DNA from: Opitutus sp.
GTDB lineage: Bacteria > Verrucomicrobiota > Verrucomicrobiia > Opitutales > Opitutaceae
Length of the DNA: 64,000 nucleotides
Assembly: GCA_013821985.1 (NCBI GenBank)
Contig: PNJQ01000004.1
Location: forward strand, 1 to 64,000
Direction of reading: 5' to 3'
Made by a program: the position numbers and the translations under genes. The notes beneath the pieces were generated by a model. That model made no database searches and had not been told where the DNA came from. It saw nothing but the letters and a program-made list of their open reading frames with translations. Shown one piece after another: positions 15,492 to 26,931 of the stretch (position 1 is its first letter; every line of letters begins with the position of its first letter).

Positions 15492-18400
15492 TCAGCTTCT
15501 TCCACCCGGCGGGGCGGGCGGCGCGAGTCCGCGCCGGACGGCGGAGGCCAGTTCGTCCAGGCTGACGGGTTTCCGCAGGATAAGGCTGGCGCCACATTCC
15601 TCGAGTTCTTGCTTCCGCTCGGCATCGACGAACCCCGAAATCAGAATGATGGGCATTCCCGGGCGGTGGGTCCGCACGCTGCGAATCAGGGCGGCTCCGG
15701 ATAGCGCCGGCATCGCGAAATCGGTGATCACGAGGTCGTAGGCGTCGGGGCGGCGGGCGAAACGACTGACCGCGTCCACCGGATGTTCGACCTCTTCGAC
15801 CTCATAGCCGAGACGGGTGAGCAAAATCGTGAGCGGGGTGCGCGCATCGCGGTCGTCGTCAACGAACAGGATACGCTCGCGCCCGCCGACGGACTGATTG
15901 TCCGCCGGGGCTTTCGGGGCGGGACGACCTTCCTCGGCGAGGGCGGGGAACAGAATCTCCAAGTTCGTGCCGACGTCTGGAGTGCTGCGCATCGTGATGG
16001 AGCCGCCGTGCGACCGCACGACTCCATGGACGACGGCCAAGCCGAGCCCGGTTCCGTGCCCGGTTTCTTTGGTGGTAAAGAACGGCTCGAAGACGCGCTC
16101 GGCGACCTCGGGGGACATGCCACAGCCATTGTCCTCCACGGTCAGGCGCAAGTAGGCTCCCGGTTGGGCGTCGACCCGCTCGACGTCCAAAGCACAGGGA
16201 GCAAGGGTCACCCGGATGTGACCGCCGGTGGACGGTAGCGCCTGCCACGCGTTGGTGCAGAGATTCATGACGACCTGGTGAATCTGGGTGGCGTTGGCGA
16301 GCACCATGGGACAATCGGGCGCGACCGTCTCCTCCAGATGCACCATCGCAGGCAGACTCGAGCGGATGAGTTTGAGCGCCTCGCGAACGACGGGCTCGAG
16401 GGCGATCGGCGCCAGCGCCCCCTCCCCTTTCCGACTGAAAGTGAGAATCTGGCGCACGAGGTCCCGTGCACGCAGGCCGGAGGAGCCAATGCCGTCCAGC
16501 CACTGCCGAGCCTCGTGGTCCGAGGGCAACTCGAAACGCGCGAGTTCAACGAAGCCAAGCATCCCGGTGAGGATGTTGTTGAAATCGTGCGCGATGCCAC
16601 CGGCGAGCGTGCCGAGTGATTCCAGCTTTTGTGTCTGACGGAGGTGCTGCTCGGTCTGTTGGCGAGCCATCTCGCTGGCAACTCGCACGGCGAACAGACG
16701 GAGCAAGGCTTCGAGGCGTTCGGGCGGGCGTAGGACCCCGCCGTGCATCACGCCGAGAAAGCCGAGCACGCGGCCTTGCACGTCGCGGATTTCCACGGCT
16801 GCGTAGCCGGAGATGCGGCGCTCCAACAGCAGTGAGTCCGCGGGAAAGAGTTGGGCGGCGTGCTCCGGCACGTGAAAGAACGGAAGGTCGACGAGCCTCG
16901 CGCACGCCTTCTGCGCGAGGGCGTGCATGCGCCCGGGATCACCCGACCGGGAGGGTGCTCCGCGCGAGTAGCTGTGCGCATGGAAGCATGTGTGGTTGCC
17001 GGGCACGTAATCGCAGACAAAGCTGTGATCCACGGCGAGCAGCGTGGCGAGAAAGCGGGCGACCTCGTCGAAATACGTTGCGCCAGCGAAGGCGGTGGCT
17101 TGGACGGAGAGAAACTTCAGTGCCTCCGACGTGAGCTTGCGATCGGTGACGTCAAACGAGGTGGCGAAGAAACCGATGAATTCGCCGGTCGGGTCGCGCA
17201 TCGGTTGAATGGTGAGATGCACCCAGTAGCTGTCTCCATGTTTGCTGAGATTGAGAATCTCCGTCTCAACCGGTTCGCGCGCGCGCATTTTCTCGCGAAT
17301 CAGACTGCGGGTGGCGCTGTCGGCGCCGGGATTCCGGAGGAAAGCGCCTGGAGGTCGACCGCGGACTTCGTCAAGGGTGTAGCCGGTCAGCGCGGTAAAT
17401 CCGGCGTTCGTCCATTCGACCCTGCCGGTGGTATCGGCGATAACCACGGCCATGTTGGTATCGCGCGCGAGTATGGCGAGACGCTGGCTTTCGATTTCGG
17501 CGCGGCGGCGCCGCGTGATGTCGCGCTGCGTGTAGAGAATGAAAGATTCGCCGCCCACCATCACGGTTTTCGCGATCACTTCGACAGGGAACAGCGAGCC
17601 GTCCTTCCGCATATGGTCCACTTCGAACGTCAACGTCTCACCGGCCAGCACGCGCCCGATGCGCTCGAGAGCCAGTCGATCGCTTTCCGGAGAGTCGAGT
17701 CGCCGGATATCGCAACCGAGCATCTCACCTGGGCTGTAACCGTGCATCCGTTCGGCGGCCGGATTGGCGGAACGGATGCGACCCACGGTGTCGATCAGCA
17801 GAATACCATCACCGCTGGATTCCATGAGGGCGCGATACCGCGCCTCGCTGTCGCGCACGGCGCGCACAGCGCGCTCCCGCTCCGTGACGTCCTGCATCGC
17901 GCCGATCAGACGCACCGGGCGGCCTGCAGGCTCGCGCACGATATGCGCGCGATCTTCAACGTGGGCGTAGGTGCCGTCGGCGCGCCGAAAACGGTATTCG
18001 TCGCGCCATGTCTCGCCGCCCCCCGCGAGGGTGGACACCACTGCGGCGACGACGCGGGCGCGATCATCGGGGTGCAGGTGCGCACGCCAGAACTCGCCGT
18101 TCGCCGAGGCCGCCGCGCGATCATGCCCGTAGATGGCGGTGAACTGCTCGCTCCACCAGATCGCGTCGGTGAGCAGATCTTGGTCCCAGATGACGTTGAA
18201 GACGGCCCGATTGACGAGTTGGAAGCGCCCCTCACTCTCGCGCAAGGCCATCTCGGCGGCCTTGCGCGCGGAGATGTCGTGGACGACGTTGCGACCTTCG
18301 GTGACGTGCCCGACGGCATTACGTTCGAAGTGGGTGGATTGCTCGACCCAGAATTTCCGTCCGCTTTTGGCGACAACCTGGAATTCACAGTGCACATCGT

Positions 18401-21245
18401 GCACGTTCGGGTCGGCTCGCCACGCCCGGTAAGTTTTGACGATCCGGGCCCGATCCTCCTCCGCAATAAGTCGAAACGAAGAGGTCCCGAGCAGTTCACC
18501 GCGCCGGAAGCCGCCCAACGCCTCGAGCGCCGGACTACAGTAGGTAAAACGTCCGGGCGCGTCGGCGACATAGTAGCCTTCGTTGATGCTCTCGACCAAG
18601 TTGCGATACGTCGCTTCTCGCTGGCGAAGCTCGACGTTACGTTCATCGGCGAGGCGCACGGCGTCCTCGTAGATCGTAGCTTGGTGAAGGACGAGGGCGG
18701 CGAGCTGAGTGAAGAGCCGGGCCTCGGCAACCTCCGTGGGCGTAAACGGACGGTCCGGCTCCTTGCGCAATAGGACGAGCACGCCGAGACAGACGGGGCC
18801 GCAGAGGATCGGGAACACGGCAGCCGCGCGGAACCCCCACTGCCGGAGACTCTCGCGCGATTCAGGGTGCGCGGTGTAGTCGGTTAAAACAATGGGCTCG
18901 CCGGTTTCGATGGCGCGCCAGGAGAGCGGGCCCTGTGCCCGACTGACGCGTTCGCCCAGCGGATAGACGCGAGAGTCGGCGAGGCCATGAACCACGAGTT
19001 CATCGCCGTCCAGCAGCGCAAGTTCGGCGTAGGGAGCATCCAGCAGGATTGAACTGCGCTGGACAATGGCCTGGAGCAGAGCATTGCGATCGCTGCGACT
19101 CAAGAGATCGATCGCGGTCTGGTTGAGCGCGGCAAAAAAATCCAATTGCTTGGTCACCACCGCCTCGACGCGCCGCCGCTCGGCCTGCTCGAGCGCGAGC
19201 ATGAGATAGCTGGCGGCGGCGATGGCGAATTTCGATTCCTCGGTCGTCCACCGCCGGCAGGGGCCGACGTGTTCGCAGCGAAGCGCGCCCGCCAACTGGC
19301 CGCCCACCCGGATCGGCACGTCGAGCAGAGAGGAGATTCCGAGTGGCGCGAGGTAGTCGGCGGAAAACCCAGCTGTTTCCGGATGTGTATGGACGTCGTC
19401 GGCCATGATCGGCTCGAACCGAGACGCCGCGATGAAGTGGGCTGGATACTCCGCTGCGCCCAAACGGGAGCCGGAAGAGTGTTCACCGGGTGTGCTTCGA
19501 TACAGATCGGCGCAGACGATGGCCGTGCGGGTCGGTTCGAACAGCCAGATGCTGGCGCGCTCGACGCGGAGCGCGCGGGCGACAACTTCAGTGGCGAGGC
19601 GGAAAAAATCCGGCCGGGCTTCGCCCTCGTGATCGCGAAGGGCAAGCAGCGTCGATTGAAAAAGCAGCGTCTGCTCCTGCTGGGCTCGGGCCGAGGCCTC
19701 GGCCGTATTGCGCGCAGTGACATCGATGCAATGACCGACGATCTCCTGAGAATGATCGATCGGGTTTGTGACTAACCGCAGTGTGTCCTGCACCGAACGC
19801 CAGGAGCCATCGCGGTGGCGAATCCGGTATTCGTGGGTCAGGCTCCCGGTGACCGGCACGGTATGCAGGTCCTTCAACACCCGCTCGCGGTCGTCGGGGT
19901 GCAGGCACTCGGCCCAGAGACCTGGCTGCTCCAGCAAGGTCTCGGCGCGGAAACCGATCAGCTCCTCAACGTGAGTGCTGATGAACCGGGCGCGATGCGG
20001 CGGCTGGGCGTCCGAGCAGTGCAGCGTGACCGGGGCGTTGGCGAGCAGGTGCTCAAGGCGCGCCCGGCTGTGCCCCAGCGCCTGCTCGGCTTCCCGTCGG
20101 GCCGAAGTGTCGGTGTTGGTGCCGATCATTCGGGCGGCGCGGCCCACAGAGTCCCGCGCGACGACGCGGCCATGACTCAGAAGCCACAGCCAGCGGCCGT
20201 CGGCGTGCCGCACGCGGTGCTCCACGACGTAGTCATCCGTGCCTTCGTGAATGCAGCGGCGGAAAGCTCGCATCACTTCGGGCTTGTCCTCCGGATGCAC
20301 GAGTTCGAGCAGCGCGCGAGCGCTCCGGGGTTCTCCGGACTCCTGGTAGCCCGTCATGGCACACCAATGCACATCGAGATGAATGCGGTCCGCGGTCAGA
20401 TCGCAGTCCCATGTGCCGGTGGAGGAGGCCTCGAGGGCGAGGTCGAGTCGCTGCGCGGAGGCGTGCAGCTCTGCGCTGCGCTGCGCGACGAGTTGCGCGA
20501 GTTCGTCGTGGGAGAGGCTCTTGGCCTTCACAGCGTCGAGCGCCGAGTTGACGGCGTCGCTGAGCTCATCGAATTCGGTGAATCCCTGATAGGAGTGGCG
20601 GATGGCGCTGCGGCGACCCGCATGCAAGTCCCGTGCATCGGATTCGAGGCGGCGCAGCGGATGGATGAGGAGGCGGTGCCAATAGACGCCGGCCGCCAGC
20701 GCGACCGCGAGAAAGGCGACGAGGCCCAGGCGATTCTGCCATTGCAGGGAACCGCGGAGCGCATGGAGGGAGGATTCGTCGTCGGCGGCGGCCCGGGTGG
20801 AGGCGCGCTCGAGAGCGGCGGCAGCCGGGCGAAGCTCGTGGTGGAAGAAACGCAAGAGCTCCCGCCGGCGAAGATCGGCATCGTCTGCGCCGGTCTGGTT
20901 TCGAGTGTCGTTAGCCCAGCGGCTCTCGAACGCCTCGACCGCGGCGGAGAATGGGTCGGCCGCCTGGTGCAGGCGCGATCGCGCGCTGGCTTCCGCGGCT
21001 GCGCGCTGCAGCGAGCGGCGTGGTTCCCAGGCAAGCTCCATCTGGGTGCTACCCAATAGCTGCTCGATCTCCGCCAGCGACCGCACGATGGATCGCAGCA
21101 GTTGCGCGTCTTGCCGTTGCCAAGTTTGCCGCGCTTGGAATTCTGTTTCGCGCCGGTCGATGGCCAACTCGACCAGCCAAAGGTGCGCGGCCATCAGGCC
21201 GAAAAGCACGATCAGGGTGATGGAGAATTTGACGGCGAGCTTCAT
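15492..21245 (-). CDS. Giant hybrid sensor histidine kinase with multiple PAS/GAF domains and a receiver
   Basis: 1917 residues from the ATG at 21245. The start at 21323 adds 26 residues before a clean N-terminal helix and is less likely. Order: membrane helix (about 5-25), periplasmic helical bundle, second helix (about 175-197), HAMP-like linker, two PAS, two GAF-like domains, four further PAS repeats, one more GAF-like domain, HisKA with LGTLAGGIAHDFNNILTGML, HATPase (DNGCGMSP, GHGTGLGLAVV), and a C-terminal receiver with the phospho-Asp in YDLVITDFAMPALSG and the Lys in LRKPVS. The HDFNN-type kinase with an attached receiver is usually a phosphorelay start. No phosphotransfer protein is close by. 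It is separated from the cheW gene by a terminator hairpin, so it is probably independently expressed. Confidence 0.92.
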   Translation of the reverse strand: MKLAVKFSITLIVLFGLMAAHLWLVELAIDRRETEFQARQTWQRQDAQLLRSIVRSLAEIEQLLGSTQMELAWEPRRSLQRAAAEASARSRLHQAADPFSAAVEAFESRWANDTRNQTGADDADLRRRELLRFFHHELRPAAAALERASTRAAADDESSLHALRGSLQWQNRLGLVAFLAVALAAGVYWHRLLIHPLRRLESDARDLHAGRRSAIRHSYQGFTEFDELSDAVNSALDAVKAKSLSHDELAQLVAQRSAELHASAQRLDLALEASSTGTWDCDLTADRIHLDVHWCAMTGYQESGEPRSARALLELVHPEDKPEVMRAFRRCIHEGTDDYVVEHRVRHADGRWLWLLSHGRVVARDSVGRAARMIGTNTDTSARREAEQALGHSRARLEHLLANAPVTLHCSDAQPPHRARFISTHVEELIGFRAETLLEQPGLWAECLHPDDRERVLKDLHTVPVTGSLTHEYRIRHRDGSWRSVQDTLRLVTNPIDHSQEIVGHCIDVTARNTAEASARAQQEQTLLFQSTLLALRDHEGEARPDFFRLATEVVARALRVERASIWLFEPTRTAIVCADLYRSTPGEHSSGSRLGAAEYPAHFIAASRFEPIMADDVHTHPETAGFSADYLAPLGISSLLDVPIRVGGQLAGALRCEHVGPCRRWTTEESKFAIAAASYLMLALEQAERRRVEAVVTKQLDFFAALNQTAIDLLSRSDRNALLQAIVQRSSILLDAPYAELALLDGDELVVHGLADSRVYPLGERVSRAQGPLSWRAIETGEPIVLTDYTAHPESRESLRQWGFRAAAVFPILCGPVCLGVLVLLRKEPDRPFTPTEVAEARLFTQLAALVLHQATIYEDAVRLADERNVELRQREATYRNLVESINEGYYVADAPGRFTYCSPALEALGGFRRGELLGTSSFRLIAEEDRARIVKTYRAWRADPNVHDVHCEFQVVAKSGRKFWVEQSTHFERNAVGHVTEGRNVVHDISARKAAEMALRESEGRFQLVNRAVFNVIWDQDLLTDAIWWSEQFTAIYGHDRAAASANGEFWRAHLHPDDRARVVAAVVSTLAGGGETWRDEYRFRRADGTYAHVEDRAHIVREPAGRPVRLIGAMQDVTERERAVRAVRDSEARYRALMESSGDGILLIDTVGRIRSANPAAERMHGYSPGEMLGCDIRRLDSPESDRLALERIGRVLAGETLTFEVDHMRKDGSLFPVEVIAKTVMVGGESFILYTQRDITRRRRAEIESQRLAILARDTNMAVVIADTTGRVEWTNAGFTALTGYTLDEVRGRPPGAFLRNPGADSATRSLIREKMRAREPVETEILNLSKHGDSYWVHLTIQPMRDPTGEFIGFFATSFDVTDRKLTSEALKFLSVQATAFAGATYFDEVARFLATLLAVDHSFVCDYVPGNHTCFHAHSYSRGAPSRSGDPGRMHALAQKACARLVDLPFFHVPEHAAQLFPADSLLLERRISGYAAVEIRDVQGRVLGFLGVMHGGVLRPPERLEALLRLFAVRVASEMARQQTEQHLRQTQKLESLGTLAGGIAHDFNNILTGMLGFVELARFELPSDHEARQWLDGIGSSGLRARDLVRQILTFSRKGEGALAPIALEPVVREALKLIRSSLPAMVHLEETVAPDCPMVLANATQIHQVVMNLCTNAWQALPSTGGHIRVTLAPCALDVERVDAQPGAYLRLTVEDNGCGMSPEVAERVFEPFFTTKETGHGTGLGLAVVHGVVRSHGGSITMRSTPDVGTNLEILFPALAEEGRPAPKAPADNQSVGGRERILFVDDDRDARTPLTILLTRLGYEVEEVEHPVDAVSRFARRPDAYDLVITDFAMPALSGAALIRSVRTHRPGMPIILISGFVDAERKQELEECGASLILRKPVSLDELASAVRRGLAPPAPPGGRS

Positions 21246-21363
21246 CGAGGCCGGCCGCTCGCGGCGGGCGATAGTAGCGGGCGCATACGCTGGGCCGAAG
21301 GTCCGCAGTTTGGTGGTCCCCAATTTGGCGACGCGAGGCAGAATTAACCGGGAGGCAAAGAAG

Positions 21364-21393
21364 AGCCCGGTCGGCGATGTCGCCGGCCGGGCT
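21364..21393 (-). terminator. Terminator hairpin after the chemoreceptor-cheW operon
   Basis: A 14-bp stem with one G-U pair and a two-base loop: AGCCCGGTCGGCGA at 21364-21377 against TCGCCGGCCGGGCT at 21380-21393. Read on the minus strand, it lies 30 bases after the cheW stop and is followed by a modest T-rich stretch (CTTCTTTG). Confidence 0.7.
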
Positions 21394-21423
21394 GAACTAC
21401 GCTCGCGCAGATCCCCGGGCTCG

Positions 21424-21921
21424 TCAGGCCGCCGCGGTGTCGGCGAGAGACTGCACGGTCGGAGCGGCGACGACTCGGTCGATGTCCAGCAAGGTTTTCA
21501 CCTGCCCTTTCACCTTCGCCATGCCGAGCAGGTAACCGGTGTCCACTTTGGTGCCGAACTGCGGCGTTGGCTCGATGTCGTCGGCGGGAAGGCTTACCAC
21601 TTCCTCGACGGCGTCCACGACCAGGCCCATCTGCAGGGTGAGCTCGTTGGGTTTGCGGACTTGGACGACGACGATGCAGGTGCGTTCGCTGAAGTCGGCC
21701 TTGAGGCCGAACTTCACGCGGAGGTCGATGACCGGGATAACGCGGCCGCGAAGGTTAATGACGCCCTTCACGAAGGCGGGCATTTGGGGCACGGGGGTGA
21801 TTTTCTGCAGTCGGATGATTTCGCGGACCTTGAGCACGGCGATTCCGTAAGCTTCGTCGGCCAGGACGACCGTCAGGTATCTGCCGGCGAGGCCGTCAAT
21901 GGAGGTGTCGGTGGGTTTCAT
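21424..21921 (-). CDS. cheW: CheW chemotaxis coupling protein
   Basis: 165 residues with a full CheW SH3-like double barrel: YLTVVLADEAYGIAVLKVREII, then MPAFVKGVINLRGRVIPVIDLRVKFGL, with VVDAVEEVVSLP later. It links chemoreceptors to the kinase CheA. The gene starts two bases after the stop of the carbonic anhydrase-chemoreceptor gene, so the two are co-transcribed and the coupling protein is probably dedicated to this receptor. CheA is not in the window and must be supplied from another locus. Confidence 0.95.
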   Translation of the reverse strand: MKPTDTSIDGLAGRYLTVVLADEAYGIAVLKVREIIRLQKITPVPQMPAFVKGVINLRGRVIPVIDLRVKFGLKADFSERTCIVVVQVRKPNELTLQMGLVVDAVEEVVSLPADDIEPTPQFGTKVDTGYLLGMAKVKGQVKTLLDIDRVVAAPTVQSLADTAAA

Positions 21922-21923
21922 GG

Positions 21924-24440
21924 TCAGGAGTCGAGAAAGTTTTCGGCGTGGTGCACCGGGCCGTGGGCGGCTCGGACAACGGCGGACGGACGCGGCGCCG
22001 CGAGCCCGGACGGAACGGGAGTGGCCCGGCGCGTCGCCGGGGCGGCGTTCCTCTTCCCGAGTGAGGCAACCGCGACCGGGATGCGCACCGCCTCCGCGAC
22101 TGAACTGCTGCCGACGAGCTTCCGCAGTTCGGCGACGGCGTCGTTGAGCGCAATGGCCTGGGCATTCAGTTCCTCCGCGGCGGCGGCGGTTTCCTCCGCG
22201 CTGCCGGCGTTCGATTGAGTGACCTTGTCCATCTGCGAGACGGCGGTATTCACCTGGCCGATGCCTTGAGTCTGCTCCGACGAGGCTGTGGCGATTTCAG
22301 CAACGAGCGCGTCCATCTGCCGGGCACGATCGACAATCTGCTGGAGCGAGGCAGCCACTTTGCCGGAGATGACGACACCGTGCTCGCTCTTGGCGACCGA
22401 GTCCTCGATCTTGGCGGCGGATTCTTTGGCGGCTTGTGCGGAGCGCTGGGCCAGAGCACGGACCTCTTCGGCCACGACCGCAAAGCCCGCCCCGGCCTCG
22501 CCGGCTCGGGCGGCTTCGACGGCGGCGTTGAGGGCGAGGATATTCGTTTGGAACGCGATTTCGTCGATCGTCTTCACGATCTTCGCGATTTCCCCGGAGG
22601 AGACTTTGATCGCGTCCATAGCTGATTTCATCTGCGCCATATCGGCAGCGCCGGTGTCGGCGGCCACACGGGTCTGATTGGAGAGTTCCTTGGCTTGGAC
22701 GGCGCTCTCGGCATTGCGCTTGGTCATGCCGGCCATCTCCTCCAGCGAGGCGGACGTTTCCTCGAGCGAGGCGGCCTGCTCGCTGGAGCCTTCGGCGAGC
22801 GATTGGCTGGACGACGAAACCTGACTGGCGGCCGAGGCAATCTGATCCGCGCCATCGCCGACGACGCCGGCGACTTTGTGCAGCGGTCCAATCAGACTCC
22901 GAGCGGTGATCCAAGCGAGACCGGCGCCGAGGAAAATCACGCCGAGGCCAATGACTGCGATCTCGAGATCGGTCGCCTCCATCTCGAATCGCACGTGCTG
23001 GCCGAGTTCGGCCTGGTGGTTGAGCAGATCGAGTTTCAGTTCCTCAATTTCGGAGGCGAGTTCGTCGCCGATCGGGTCCATGACCTGGCCGAGCTTCTTC
23101 TCCGCGGCCAAATCGCGTTTCGCCACCGCTTCGATGCGTTTCTGAAAAGCGGTGTGGTAGCTGGCGAGCGAAGCCAGCGTCTTGGCGATGATGCGGCGCT
23201 CTTCCTCCGTCTCCACCCGCCGGGAAAGCTGATTGAGCAGATCCAGCGCCTGGCCGTGGCTGGATTGGTAGTTTCGGATATCCGCCGCATTGTGGCTCAT
23301 GCCGTAATGATTCGTCGCAACGCGCATTTCGAGAAAGTCAGCATGGATGCGGGCGGCAGTGAGGGTATCGCTTGTCTCCTCGCGGTAGGTGCCGAAATCG
23401 TCGAGCGCGCTGCCCAGACCGCGGATGCCGAGCGCGACCACACTGGCCAAAGCCAGCAGCAGCGCGCCGAACCCGACCGTCAGGCGGCGGCCGATCGTCC
23501 AGCGCTGCATCGTCGTGCGGGAGAGCTGCCAGGCGCCCGCGAGGAGCGCGATAACGCTCAACGCGGTGCCGACAATCCACGGGGTCTTGGCCGGAGAGTG
23601 AAACTCGCTTGGTGCGGTGGCGGAGGCGTGCGCCGGAGCGGCCGCGGGCGAGTGTTCCGTTTCGAGGGCCGCACGTTCGACGTGGGCTCCGGTTCCGCCA
23701 GCGGTGGCGAGCAGGCGGCTCATTTCCGGGTGTTCGCCGCGCCACTGGACCGTGCCGGAAGTGAGATCGTAGATGGCGCCGACAACCTTGAGTTTTCCGG
23801 CCTTCACGAGGTCACGGATGGTGGCACTGTTTTCGAAAATGTTGTCGATTGATTGCCAGACGTTGGCCTCGACCGCTTTTGCGAGGAGCTGCGCGCCGGC
23901 CAGCGTCGGATGGACGGATTTCGTGCGCTCGACGGCGGGCACGATGGTATCGAGCAGTTGGGGGATGTTACCGTGAACTTCGGCGCCTTCGAGCACGGCC
24001 TTCACCGCGCCGCAGGAACTGTGACCCATGACGACGAGCAACTGCGTGCCGAGATGGCTCGCGCCGTATTCGATCGAGCCGATCTCGTCGGTCTTGGCGA
24101 CGTTGCCCGCGACCCGCACGACGAAGAGATCGCCGAGACCTTGGTCGAAAATGGCTTCAGCCGGCAGACGCGAATCGGAGCAGGTGAGAATCGTCGCAAA
24201 GGGTGACTGACCTTTCGCAGTTTCGACGCGGCGGTCAGCGCTCTGATTGGGGTGAATCGCCCCGCCGGAAACGAACCGGTCGTTGCCGGCGACGAGACGC
24301 TGGGAGGCTTGGTCCGGAGTGACGGACTGGGCTGCGAGGGAGGCGGCGGCCAGCGCGAAGAGCGCGGCGAGCAGGACAGGACGGGGTGTTGTTTTCATCG
24401 AGGGAAAGCGGTCGGTGAACCGCGCGGAGCGGTTTGGCAC
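21924..24440 (-). CDS. Fusion of exported beta-carbonic anhydrase and methyl-accepting chemotaxis protein
   Basis: 838 residues from the GTG at 24440, which has a strong Shine-Dalgarno (AGGAGGGG at 24448-24455, 7-base spacing). An ATG at 24398 would give 824 residues. Residues 15-39 form a Sec signal peptide ending LAAQS. Residues about 40-235 are a beta-class carbonic anhydrase with the zinc set Cys87 and the Asp89/Arg91 dyad in TCSDSR, and His140 and Cys143 in [10 protein letters not shown]. An Ala/Pro linker leads to helix 1 (about 286-306), a short basic cytoplasmic turn, and helix 2 (about 318-339). A periplasmic four-helix-bundle region runs to about 490, with helix 3 at about 492-512. 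The MCP signalling hairpin contains the conserved tip [21 protein letters not shown] normal HAMP domain is not evident. The topology puts both the enzyme and the ligand domain outside the cytoplasmic membrane. The likely role is sensing CO2, bicarbonate or pH for chemotaxis; this is inference. Confidence 0.93.
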
Positions 24441-24519
24441 GTCGCTTCCCCTCCTGACCGGCCCTTATCCGGTCCGAAGTGGCGGTCGTGCGCAGTCGCA
24501 CACCGCAACGCTGTCCCGT

Positions 24520-24546
24520 TTATCGGAAGGGTGTCCCAAAACTTTA
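24520..24546 (-). promoter_or_regulatory. Sigma-28 (FliA) type promoter of the carbonic anhydrase-chemoreceptor gene
   Basis: On the minus strand, TAAAGTTT (24539-24546), eleven spacer bases, then TCCGATAA (24520-24527). The E. coli flagellar sigma consensus is TAAAGTTT-N11-GCCGATAA, so 15 of 16 consensus positions match with exact spacing. Transcription would start near 24512 and leave a leader of roughly 70 bases before the GTG. A 6-bp hairpin (24456-24461 with 24469-24474) lies just before the ribosome-binding site. Confidence 0.8.
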
Positions 24547-24741
24547 GAAAAATTTTACCTTCCCGAAAAAGGATAGGTCGCACGAGTGGGGGGCTCCATC
24601 GCGCTGCACTCACTGCGTTGCCGCCTCGAAGCTCACGTGTCGAGCGGCGGCGGGAAAAATGCAATCAAACCGCGGAATTCAAAGCCGGACTCGTGCGCCT
24701 GGGACGTCTTATCGCCGCCGAACACCGACGGCACCTCGGGG

Positions 24742-25389
24742 TCAACTCGCGAGCGTCTGGAGCAGGCGTTGGCGCAGGTTGCCAAGTTCACGCGAACGGA
24801 AGCTGTGTTTGGTTTCCTCGATGACGCGCACGGCATCCGCGAGGGCCGCACGAAGGTGCCCGGCGCGCGAGACGGAAAGAACGCGCGGAGCGGCCTCGAG
24901 GTCGAGCAACACCTCCTCGAGATCGCGAAGGACGGAGTCGAGGCGTGCGGGGTCCGCCGTGGCACCGTCCGCGAGAGCCACGCGCAGGCCGCGGAGGGAA
25001 GCGTGGGCGCGACGGTGACGCCGGGCAGTCAGATTTAAATGCGCGAGCAGCTGACCGAGTTCGGGAAAATCCGGCGGTTTAACGATGAAGGCGGCCACGT
25101 GCAAATTGGCGGCCTTGATGGCTGAATCGAGTTCAGGGCGCCCGGTGAGAAGCACGATCGGCAGTGCTGGGTGGGTCCGCGCGACGCGCTCGGTCCATAC
25201 CAGCTTATCGTTGCCCGGCAGACAAACGTCGCTGAGGAGGACGTCGAATTCCTGCCGCGCAAGCTCGCCATCGGCGGCTACGGGATCAGCGGCCACGGCG
25301 ACGAGAGCACCGTTGCGCCGCAACCAAGCGCCCACCGCGGTGGCGTTCACCGGGTCGTCTTCTACGAACAGAATGCGCGCTCCTAGCAT
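24742..25389 (-). CDS. Receiver-domain response regulator with helical C-terminal extension
   Basis: 215 residues. The N-terminal receiver (about 1-120) has the acidic pair EDD, the phospho-Asp in LLSDVCLPGN, the Thr in LLTGR and the Lys in IVKPPDF. The remaining 90 residues are Arg/Leu/Ala-rich and look helical, with no DNA-binding or enzymatic motif I recognise. It could be a histidine-phosphotransfer-like or dimerisation region. The gene ends about 300 bases upstream of the chemoreceptor, beyond its sigma-28 promoter, so it is a separate unit. A role in the same signalling network is possible but unproven. Confidence 0.85.
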   Translation of the reverse strand: MLGARILFVEDDPVNATAVGAWLRRNGALVAVAADPVAADGELARQEFDVLLSDVCLPGNDKLVWTERVARTHPALPIVLLTGRPELDSAIKAANLHVAAFIVKPPDFPELGQLLAHLNLTARRHRRAHASLRGLRVALADGATADPARLDSVLRDLEEVLLDLEAAPRVLSVSRAGHLRAALADAVRVIEETKHSFRSRELGNLRQRLLQTLAS

Positions 25390-25580
25390 GAATCTGGTTA
25401 AAAGTGGCGGGCAGGATTCCGGCCCACAAGCACTGTTTGGCGCGCCGCCTTCGTGGCCTGGCTGCCGCGGAGAGGTTTCTCCGTCATCCAGACGCCAGTC
25501 GCACGACGCCGAAAGACAGACCGAAACACGAATTCCGTTTGCTTGGCTAGTTTTGCGAACTGCTGCGCGCTGCGACTGCT

Positions 25581-25609
25581 AAAAAAAGCAGCCGTCACCG
25601 ACGGCTGCT
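25581..25609 (-). terminator. Rho-independent terminator of the PRC-barrel gene
   Basis: AGCAGCCGTC (25587-25596) and GACGGCTGCT (25600-25609) form a perfect 10-bp stem with loop ACC. On the minus strand the stem is followed by seven T residues (the A run at 25581-25587). It lies 22 bases after the stop of the PRC-barrel gene. Confidence 0.92.
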
Positions 25610-25631
25610 GCGAGGAAGACTGGCACCGCGC

Positions 25632-26288
25632 TTACTGGCGTTTTCCGCCGGCGCCGGGCGACGTGGATTCGGGCTTCTTCGTGACGTGCACGTCGTAATC
25701 GTTGTCCTGTTTGTCCTTCTTTTCCTCCGTGGCCTTTTGCTGCGTCGATTCGTCGGTGCCGGCGCTCAGCCCGATCGTTTTTTCGCCCTCCGCCGCATTC
25801 AGTTTCGGCCAATTGTCCTCGGAGAATCCGGGAGCGGCTGCGAGCCGATCTTTCGCCGCATCGATCAGGAAATGCTGTTCACCGGGTTTCAGGCTGAGCG
25901 AATCCAGTGGCACGGCAATCAGCTTGCCACCCCCGAACAGGCCGCCAGTCGAGAGTACCGCATAGGCGATGCGGCCGGACTGCATGTCGATGACAATGTC
26001 CTTCACCTTGCCGACGCGCTCGTTCTGGGTGTTGCGGACTTCCTTGCCGATAATCTCGCTCGCCTTGTTGGCGTCGGTGACCTCGTTGCGCAGTTCGTTC
26101 TGCGAAATTTTCAACTGCTCCTTCGAAGCTTCGGTGCCGGGCTGCACCTCCTGCCGGCGCTCGGTCGATTTGGGCTCGGCGTCGCGGCGGGTGTTGGCGG
26201 GATTGGACTGCGGGGAGGATTGCGCAAAGGCGACGGCCGCGGTGGAAAGCGCGATCGCGAGCGTGAGGGAGGCTGGGATTGTTTTCAT
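25632..26288 (-). CDS. Secreted PRC-barrel domain protein
   Basis: 218 residues from the ATG at 26288; another ATG lies two codons earlier. The start has a clear Sec signal (MKTIPASLTLAIALSTAAVAFA). A hydrophilic Gln/Glu/Lys-rich stretch follows, then a PRC-barrel with IIGKEVRNTQNERVGKVKDI and GRIAYAVLSTGGLFGGGKLIAVP. A charged, disordered tail ends the protein. PRC-barrel proteins of this exported type are common but poorly understood; suggested roles are in stress response or RNA/surface binding. It is monocistronic, with its own strong terminator. Confidence 0.82.
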   Translation of the reverse strand: MKTIPASLTLAIALSTAAVAFAQSSPQSNPANTRRDAEPKSTERRQEVQPGTEASKEQLKISQNELRNEVTDANKASEIIGKEVRNTQNERVGKVKDIVIDMQSGRIAYAVLSTGGLFGGGKLIAVPLDSLSLKPGEQHFLIDAAKDRLAAAPGFSEDNWPKLNAAEGEKTIGLSAGTDESTQQKATEEKKDKQDNDYDVHVTKKPESTSPGAGGKRQ

Positions 26289-26487
26289 GTTCATGTGGGT
26301 TGGAGATGAACCAAACGCGACAACCGCGGCGCGCGAAGTTTCCCCTTCAGGCCCGATTGCCGGGAGTTGCCCCATCGGCACGCGGGGAGTTCGCACCGAG
26401 GCCGTGCGGCCTGGCGATTTCCTCGCGGATTACCACCGGGAAACTGCCCCATACCGGCGCGACGAAGTTTTTATTAGGATCCAGCCG

Positions 26488-26931
26488 ATGCTCAAATTGC
26501 TGGTGATCGAAGACGACGAGGCCGACTACCACTTCATCGAAATGGCGCTCAAGGAGACGCGCTTCGCCACGCGCGTGCGCTGGGTGACCGATGGCGAACT
26601 CGCGATCGACTATCTGAGCGGCCGCGGCCCGCACGCCGATCGCGCCAAATTCCCCGTGCCCGACGTTGTGGTCCTCGACCTGAAGATGCCGCGGGTCGGC
26701 GGCTTCGAACTGCTGCAATGGATGCGCGCGCATCCTGACTATCGCGATACGCCCGCGCTTGTGATGAGTTCCTCCGGTCTGCCGCAGGACGTCGCGCGCG
26801 CCTACCAGCTCCGTGCGAATTCCTATTTCGTGAAGCCCGGCCGCTTCGAGGATTTCGTCGAACTCTTCCAACTGATCGCCGGCTACTGGAGTTTCGCCCG
26901 CACGCCCGCGCAGGCCCACGCGCACTCCTGA
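26488..26931 (+). CDS. Single-domain response regulator (Rcp1-like)
   Basis: 147 residues, a lone receiver. Acidic residues are in VIEDDEADYHFI, the phospho-Asp in VVLDLKMPRVGG, the switch Ser in VMSSSGLPQD, and the Lys in YFVKPG. The EDDEAD-HFI start and the insertion GRGPHADRAKFPVPD are typical of the small regulators that pair with phytochrome-like or PAS kinases. The kinase at 3917-7075 has that kind of core, but it is far away. The ATG at 26488 has AGGAT about 8 bases upstream; the longer upstream frame lacks any domain. Confidence 0.88.
   Translation: MLKLLVIEDDEADYHFIEMALKETRFATRVRWVTDGELAIDYLSGRGPHADRAKFPVPDVVVLDLKMPRVGGFELLQWMRAHPDYRDTPALVMSSSGLPQDVARAYQLRANSYFVKPGRFEDFVELFQLIAGYWSFARTPAQAHAHS

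Follow-up and report, generated by a model that had tools for sequence, protein, structure and literature searches.

What does a carbonic anhydrase do in front of a chemoreceptor? The window analysed here, a 64,000-nucleotide stretch of an Opitutus sp. contig (PNJQ01000004.1), contains at positions 21924-24440 of the minus strand a single open frame that reads as one protein, with a beta-carbonic anhydrase (CA) in its first part and a chemoreceptor (MCP) in its second. To our knowledge, the sensing of CO2 and bicarbonate in bacterial taxis is poorly understood. The locus raises two questions, namely whether the fusion is a genuine and inherited protein and whether the enzyme could serve as the input of the receptor.

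Architecture and surroundings of the fused gene

A preliminary description of this DNA had started the protein at the GTG codon at 24440, giving 838 aa. The frame itself is real and open, but the ATG at 24398 is the likelier start, which makes the gene 21924-24398 (-) and the protein 824 aa in length. This preference comes from the alignment of homologues, which begin at the Met equivalent to this ATG, and from the purine-rich Shine-Dalgarno-like stretch 5' of the GTG, which falls inside a conserved structured leader RNA element.

All parts of the protein lie on the minus strand. Hydropathy places a Sec-type signal peptide at the N-terminus (residues 1-26; 24321-24398), followed by the CA domain (residues 28-233; 23700-24317), which was delimited by Pfam, structure matches and alignment and has a complete zinc-site set (CSDSR...HSSC). 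A His-rich Ala/Pro tether (residues 234-270; 23589-23699), recognised from the His count across nine fusions, connects it to TM1 (residues 271-295; 23514-23588), which judging from hydropathy and from tethered unfused CAs is probably the anchor of the CA half. The MCP half starts with a basic cytoplasmic turn and TM2 (residues 296-326; 23421-23513; hydropathy) and continues with a periplasmic helical bundle that is weakly conserved in identity comparisons (residues 327-475; 22974-23420), TM3 (residues 476-503; 22890-22973; Pfam and hydropathy) and the MCP signalling hairpin (residues 504-760; 22119-22889; Pfam and alignments). In the Pfam search, Pro_CA matched residues 82-231 (E 6.2e-41, 140.7 bits against a cut-off of 25.7) and MCPsignal matched residues 585-741 (E 6.4e-44, 150.3 bits against a cut-off of 34.6). 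4HB_MCP_1 matched residues 314-468 weakly, its 25.5 bits being just below the cut-off of 27, and no HAMP was reported by Pfam in the protein, including the region behind TM3. The hydropathy profile contains the signal-peptide core and three later transmembrane segments, TM1 behind the CA half, TM2, and TM3 ahead of the hairpin. The order of parts given in the preliminary description is thus confirmed by Pfam and hydropathy, and its view of a whole exported CA placed ahead of an otherwise ordinary MCP is supported, the frame being conserved among homologues.

The TM2-bundle-TM3-hairpin half is ordinary for 4HB-type MCPs (4HB_MCP_1 with MCPsignal), and a CheW gene adjoins the fusion in the window. 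Unlike such receptors, the fusion adds a signal peptide, a whole enzyme domain and an extra transmembrane helix in front, and HAMP is not reported. SulP-CA fusions likewise join a membrane protein to Pro_CA; in those the CA is C-terminal on a transporter, whereas the window protein carries it at the N-terminus of a receptor, after a signal peptide. The Sulfate_transp domain is absent from the window protein by Pfam, which is therefore not a SulP-CA fusion.

CheW (21424-21921 (-)) starts 2 bp behind the stop codon of the fusion, and the two genes apparently form one operon. Pfam also assigned a large PAS/GAF hybrid histidine kinase behind CheW (15492-21323) and a response regulator upstream of the fusion (24742-25389 (-)); a 57%-identical relative of this regulator sits upstream of the fusion in G116 (L090). 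Consensus searches gave no promoters at the fusion locus. CheW adjoins five of the 15 fusions described below (the window, L010, L089 of G040, L090 of G116, and L319) and was not found in the examined flanks of L091, L092, L093, L096, L097, L098, L318, L321, L322 and L342. The genome itself, a 3.74-Mb assembly that is 79% complete, contains two CheA genes, one FliG gene and further MCP matches, and a profile search of this assembly found no second Pro_CA match. FliG is present in all seven fusion genomes drawn from the family.

The leader RNA element (24439-24511 (-)) is found in the window and in three further members of the genus, and also in the leaders of other MCP genes. Its copies (L010:2697-2771(-), L011:4047-4121(-), L012:4081-4151(-), L298:558-629(+) and L089:15408-15482(-)) are part of a set 71-75 bases in length with a predicted branched fold; at 10 of the 27 predicted pairs both partners are altered in one or more of six sequences. 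Of 120 family genomes scanned with a covariance model, 10 contain the element, in 17 copies altogether. Twelve of these lead into MCP genes: four into CA-MCP fusions and eight (L362, L365, L367, L368 and L370-L373) into other genes, where the same strand encodes an MCP hairpin downstream of the copy. Three further copies (L361, L369 and L374) stand ahead of frames that appear outer-membrane-like by eye, and two are unassigned. Rfam gave no match for window positions 20000-26500 up to E 1. The element is a candidate for a riboswitch-like regulator of chemoreceptor genes.

Distribution and origins of the fusions

We identified 15 distinct CA-MCP fusions with the same order of parts, nine in the family of the window or its near relatives and six in one class of planctomycetes. 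In a draw of 150 genomes from the family, a full-length fusion is present in seven, four of them from one genus (G000, G074, G040 and G116) and three from others (G123, G041 and G144); the full-length homologues in the six other genomes are 38-60% identical. No full-length fusion match was found in G096, G133 and G149, which belong to the same genus and the same draw. A scan of named genomes, in which 80 of 558 CA relatives were kept, gave three fusions, in an Opitutaceae MAG (L096), a Verrucomicrobia MAG (L097) and a Planctomycetaceae MAG (L098), of which L096 and L097 are the nearest named fusion records. The order was scanned in 372 genomes and the phylum in 387, and among the matches listed there was no further fusion outside the family. 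In the planctomycete class of G773, which holds L098, 69 of 298 genomes have a CA match at E <= 1e-35, and examination of 40 CA loci yielded fusions in six genomes (G773, G1019, G823, G994, G982 and G826), the long CA frames of G933 and G928 being left out.

The presence of both CA and MCPsignal was established by Pfam for the window, L011, L014, L015, L096, L098, L318, L319, L322 and L342, by alignment for L010, L012, L013 and L097, and by sequence match and reading for L321. The C-terminal part of the L097 frame enters unrelated sequence (L097:6098-6415 (+)), a probable assembly chimera, and the record was trimmed ahead of this part before use.

Several other long CA frames were considered and rejected. 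The order and phylum scans gave 14 such places; among the eight scanned by Pfam seven are SulP-CA and one (L294) is Pro_CA alone, and the remaining six resemble SulP near their start, by eye. In L352-L354 of the planctomycete class the CA is C-terminal and an MCP match is absent. The long frames of G096, G109 and G093 are ordinary CAs that end long open frames, and G136 was left out. In 30 listed of 528 CA-matching plasmid records the feature was named carbonic anhydrase, was missing or was unannotated, and the viral contigs gave one MCP-like match and nothing more.

Two loci at contig ends deserve mention. In G1023 (L344:4895-5926 (+)) a CA lies directly behind CheW and has a long tether, and a hydrophobic stretch begins at the contig end; this is possibly a further fusion, outside the 15 counted. 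In G1048 (L351:3-1919 (+)) the contig start truncates a CA domain, behind which the open frame continues with a transmembrane segment, a helical region and CheB methylesterase. This could be a genuine CA-CheB fusion, an interrupted CA-MCP or two sequences joined in assembly.

A fusion created by a frameshift or sequencing error, raised in the preliminary description as a possible objection, is rejected by the 15 distinct fusions and their conserved frame and order. That the locus is an artefact of assembly or sequencing, or a chance fusion without function, is accordingly a reading to which we give almost no weight: the 79% completeness of the window assembly speaks for it, and against it stand the 15 distinct genomes or records, the conservation of frame and order and a CA about as conserved as the hairpin.

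Whether the fusions go back to a single joining was addressed with CA trees. In a tree of 145 rows, from which seven identical CA rows had been removed beforehand, eight of the nine fusions of the window-family type (all except that of G144) form a supported clade (100/97). A single clade of ten fusions was not rejected in a 39-row tree (AU test, p 0.335, or 0.405 without L098). A single clade of all 15 fused CAs was rejected once rows from the planctomycete class had been added (AU p 7.6e-9). In this extended tree, well-supported branches force at least three changes between the fused and unfused labels, the bootstrap being unsettled and such changes not separating gain from loss. Uniting the ten fused CAs in one clade with four CAs encoded beside an MCP (see below) was rejected (p 3e-93), as was uniting them with the CA of L208 (p 6e-5). 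Evolution seems to have paired CA with MCP on several occasions.

Carbonic anhydrases encoded beside receptors

Exported CAs of this kind are also found as separate genes next to an MCP. We fetched 20 lower-scoring Pro_CA places of the family, a part of all such places, those of G024 and G066 having been picked in the knowledge of a nearby MCP match; identity to the window CA is at least 43% for 17 of them. In four of these 17 (L069, L070, L075 and L076) the genes follow the order CA-MCP-CheW, with the MCP starting, by coordinates, 36-39 bases past the CA stop. The contig of L072 ends at an MCP-like start, and L265, from the same genome, opens with such an MCP followed by CheW, so that the two are probably a fifth locus of this order split by a contig end. 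Outside the family, G741 (L208/L281) has the order CheW-MCP-CA, and G774 of the planctomycete class (L320) has CheW-MCP followed by a tandem CA. The latter gene (L320:4572-6521 (-)), downstream of the CheW-MCP pair, encodes two tandem CA domains and C-terminal transmembrane helices.

Such proximity is confined to a minority of loci, as most of the examined CAs of this kind have an MCP-free neighbourhood. As a control, 30 loci of the higher-scoring CA type of the family were inspected; no full MCP hairpin lies closer than about 1.5 kb to any of them, and one (L064) has a 52-residue partial MCP match at its edge. For 77 of the 80 named CA loci, the examined flanks, up to 4 kb long, gave no MCP match. 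The receptors are not tied to the enzyme either: four close copies of the paired-type sensor (two in G083, one each in G043 and G108) have no nearby CA, and among 20 regions fetched for this sensor a CA was seen at L281 alone.

The sensor region of the paired receptor of L070 is 44% identical over 298 aa to the bundle of the fused protein L319 and belongs to the same family. It is 49% and 46% identical to the corresponding regions of the unfused CA-adjacent MCPs of L320 and L281, respectively. By these comparisons, one receptor type appears both fused to a CA and unfused beside one. That exported CAs are linked to MCP genes time and again strengthens the case for sensing of inorganic carbon or pH by the fusion, which the preliminary description had suggested and which we consider plausible.

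The carbonic anhydrase as a possible receptor input

The window CA carries the Cys/Asp-Arg/His/Cys set as CSDSR...GHSSC. Its closest solved structure by sequence is the Mycobacterium tuberculosis CA Rv3588c (E 2e-35), and the domain as modelled by AlphaFold (mean pLDDT 95.1) has the same protein as best PDB match (2a5v; TM 0.82, 38% identity). It thus shares the fold and zinc-site residues of the PRK15219/Rv3588c beta-CAs (NF011765; PDB 1ym3, 2a5v), its score of 170.7 with NCBIfam NF011765 (PRK15219) being under the cut-off of 221, and CAs of the fusion type differ from these in being joined to, or encoded beside, a chemoreceptor. The full-length model of the fusion has a mean pLDDT of 59.6, too poor for the geometry of CA and bundle to be read from it. 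A different substrate was considered, in which a fold resembling CS2 or COS hydrolases would report a sulfur gas, or in which the His-rich tether would sense zinc. The weak sequence matches of the window CA to CS2 and COS hydrolases (3ten, E 6e-4; 3vqj, E 8e-4) and the 10.8% His in the tethers of nine fusions are in line with this; ordinary CAs match far better, at the E-value and TM score given above, and we consider both versions very unlikely.

All five residues of the Cys-Asp-Arg-His-Cys set are retained in 14 of the 15 fusions. Loss of zinc ligands in homologues, which the preliminary description had named as evidence against its proposal, is seen in one, L321 of G994, where Cys1 is replaced by Ser and His by Asn, so that two of the three ligands are gone and the fusion is retained. 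This planctomycete-class gene (L321:4931-7933 (+)) is a natural zinc-ligand-lost version of the CA-MCP fusion. Because of these replacements, catalysis may be dispensable in some fused members, and so may not be essential in every one. The loss suggests either that one lineage or more reads occupancy or that the domain has decayed. It also agrees with the idea that the CA acts as a binding sensor, in which bicarbonate, CO2, pH or zinc occupancy strains the CA dimer and so drives the receptor, turnover being incidental. A CA that is conserved as the input above a drifting bundle fits this as well. On the other side, the whole catalytic set is kept by nearly all fusions, and a CA made from a separate gene would less easily act as a mechanical lever. 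Moreover, a Trp three residues ahead of Cys1 marks the allosteric type-II beta-CAs, and this Trp is absent from the seven aligned fusions, which have Ile or Val there; it does occur in another CA of the window's family (L060). On balance we hold a pure binding sensor to be unlikely, though it deserves to be kept in mind.

The segment between CA and TM1 is distinctive in composition. Over nine fusions it contains 52 His in 481 residues, whereas outside this segment His makes up 2.3% of the window protein; the pattern used missed L098, and the count predates the fetching of the other planctomycete-class fusions. Tethers with a C-terminal transmembrane helix also occur on unfused CAs, at seven of the 40 planctomycete-class loci (L326, L329, L332, L339, L340, L341 and L349). 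In one of these (L341:4681-6177 (+), G779), the CA is followed by a tether of HGETEA/HGESEA-like repeats with 17 His in 117 residues. Since such tethered CAs occur without an MCP, the simplest explanation for the extra TM1 of the fusion is that it anchored an exported CA in the membrane before this enzyme was joined to an MCP. The same habit of anchoring would suit a tethered enzyme, for which the receptor array merely localises a periplasmic CA and the MCP half senses something else. An MCP is unnecessary for anchoring, however, and the repeated joining to MCP genes across CA lineages, together with the weakly conserved bundle, argues that the CA matters for the signal; we find this explanation improbable.

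Among four genus-mates (six pairs), identity is 82% in the CA and 86% in the hairpin, as against 32% in the bundle. Between G040 and G074, the fused protein is 50% identical in the bundle, 89% in the CA and 95% in the hairpin, and two sets of unfused MCP orthologs reach 82% and 93% in their bundles and 97% and 98% in their hairpins. In the comparison with G116, the fused protein has 33-35% identity in the bundle and 84% in the hairpin; one unfused set has 41% (hairpin 88%) and the other 81-82% (92%). These figures hint, without proving it, that fast drift of the bundle sets the fusions apart. In a solo exported CA, 178 of 208 residues (86%) agree between G040 and G074, and the fused CA therefore seems to be under no unusual constraint.

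As read from the sequence, a beta-CA with a signal peptide, a tether and intact active-site residues stands outermost, as input module, on a 4HB-type MCP. We lean, by a small measure, towards the fusion being a chemoreceptor for dissolved inorganic carbon or pH with a periplasmic CA as its input. In such a receptor the CA would be exported, active and dimerised on the MCP dimer; beta-CAs act as dimers or larger assemblies, which fits the dimeric MCP. At the outer face of the inner membrane it would exchange CO2, bicarbonate and H+, and either its product (local pH or bicarbonate) or its liganded state would be the signal, the His-rich tether possibly reading the product. The signal would then pass through TM1, the turn and TM2 to the bundle, and from there through the hairpin to CheA/CheW, which act on the flagella. 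Neighbouring CA and MCP genes may provide for the same input in trans. Catalysis, occupancy and protonation of the tether are alternative inputs that sequence does not separate.

In animals, carbonic anhydrases have been linked to bicarbonate sensing by soluble adenylyl cyclase, as outlined at the start of PMC3085406. According to the same outline, CA activity is there linked to a bicarbonate-responsive signalling protein, as may be the case here, but the two are separate proteins and the output is a cyclic nucleotide. Among open-access papers, judged by titles and the opening of abstracts and with the subscription literature mostly outside this scope, we found none on a CA fused to a chemoreceptor, and the earlier statement that no such system was described is not contradicted at that level. 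MCPs with diverse sensors are already known; within the same literature, a recurrent MCP with a complete exported enzyme as its input was not found described.

We propose, tentatively and as something that may well prove too broad, that CA-chemoreceptors are an enzyme-input class which evolved independently in several lineages of Verrucomicrobiota and Planctomycetota to navigate gradients of inorganic carbon or acidity. The turnover of the receptor's own enzyme would make the proton or bicarbonate signal, the His-rich tether may be a pH-responsive link, and one lineage may have become a catalytically dead binding sensor. The fused, adjacent and zinc-ligand-lost forms are natural comparisons for deciding between catalysis and binding. 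The CA-MCP proteins would exemplify chemoreceptors that take their input from an enzyme instead of a ligand pocket, and a CA-headed receptor would offer a direct and genetically tractable handle on CO2 and bicarbonate taxis in these bacteria.
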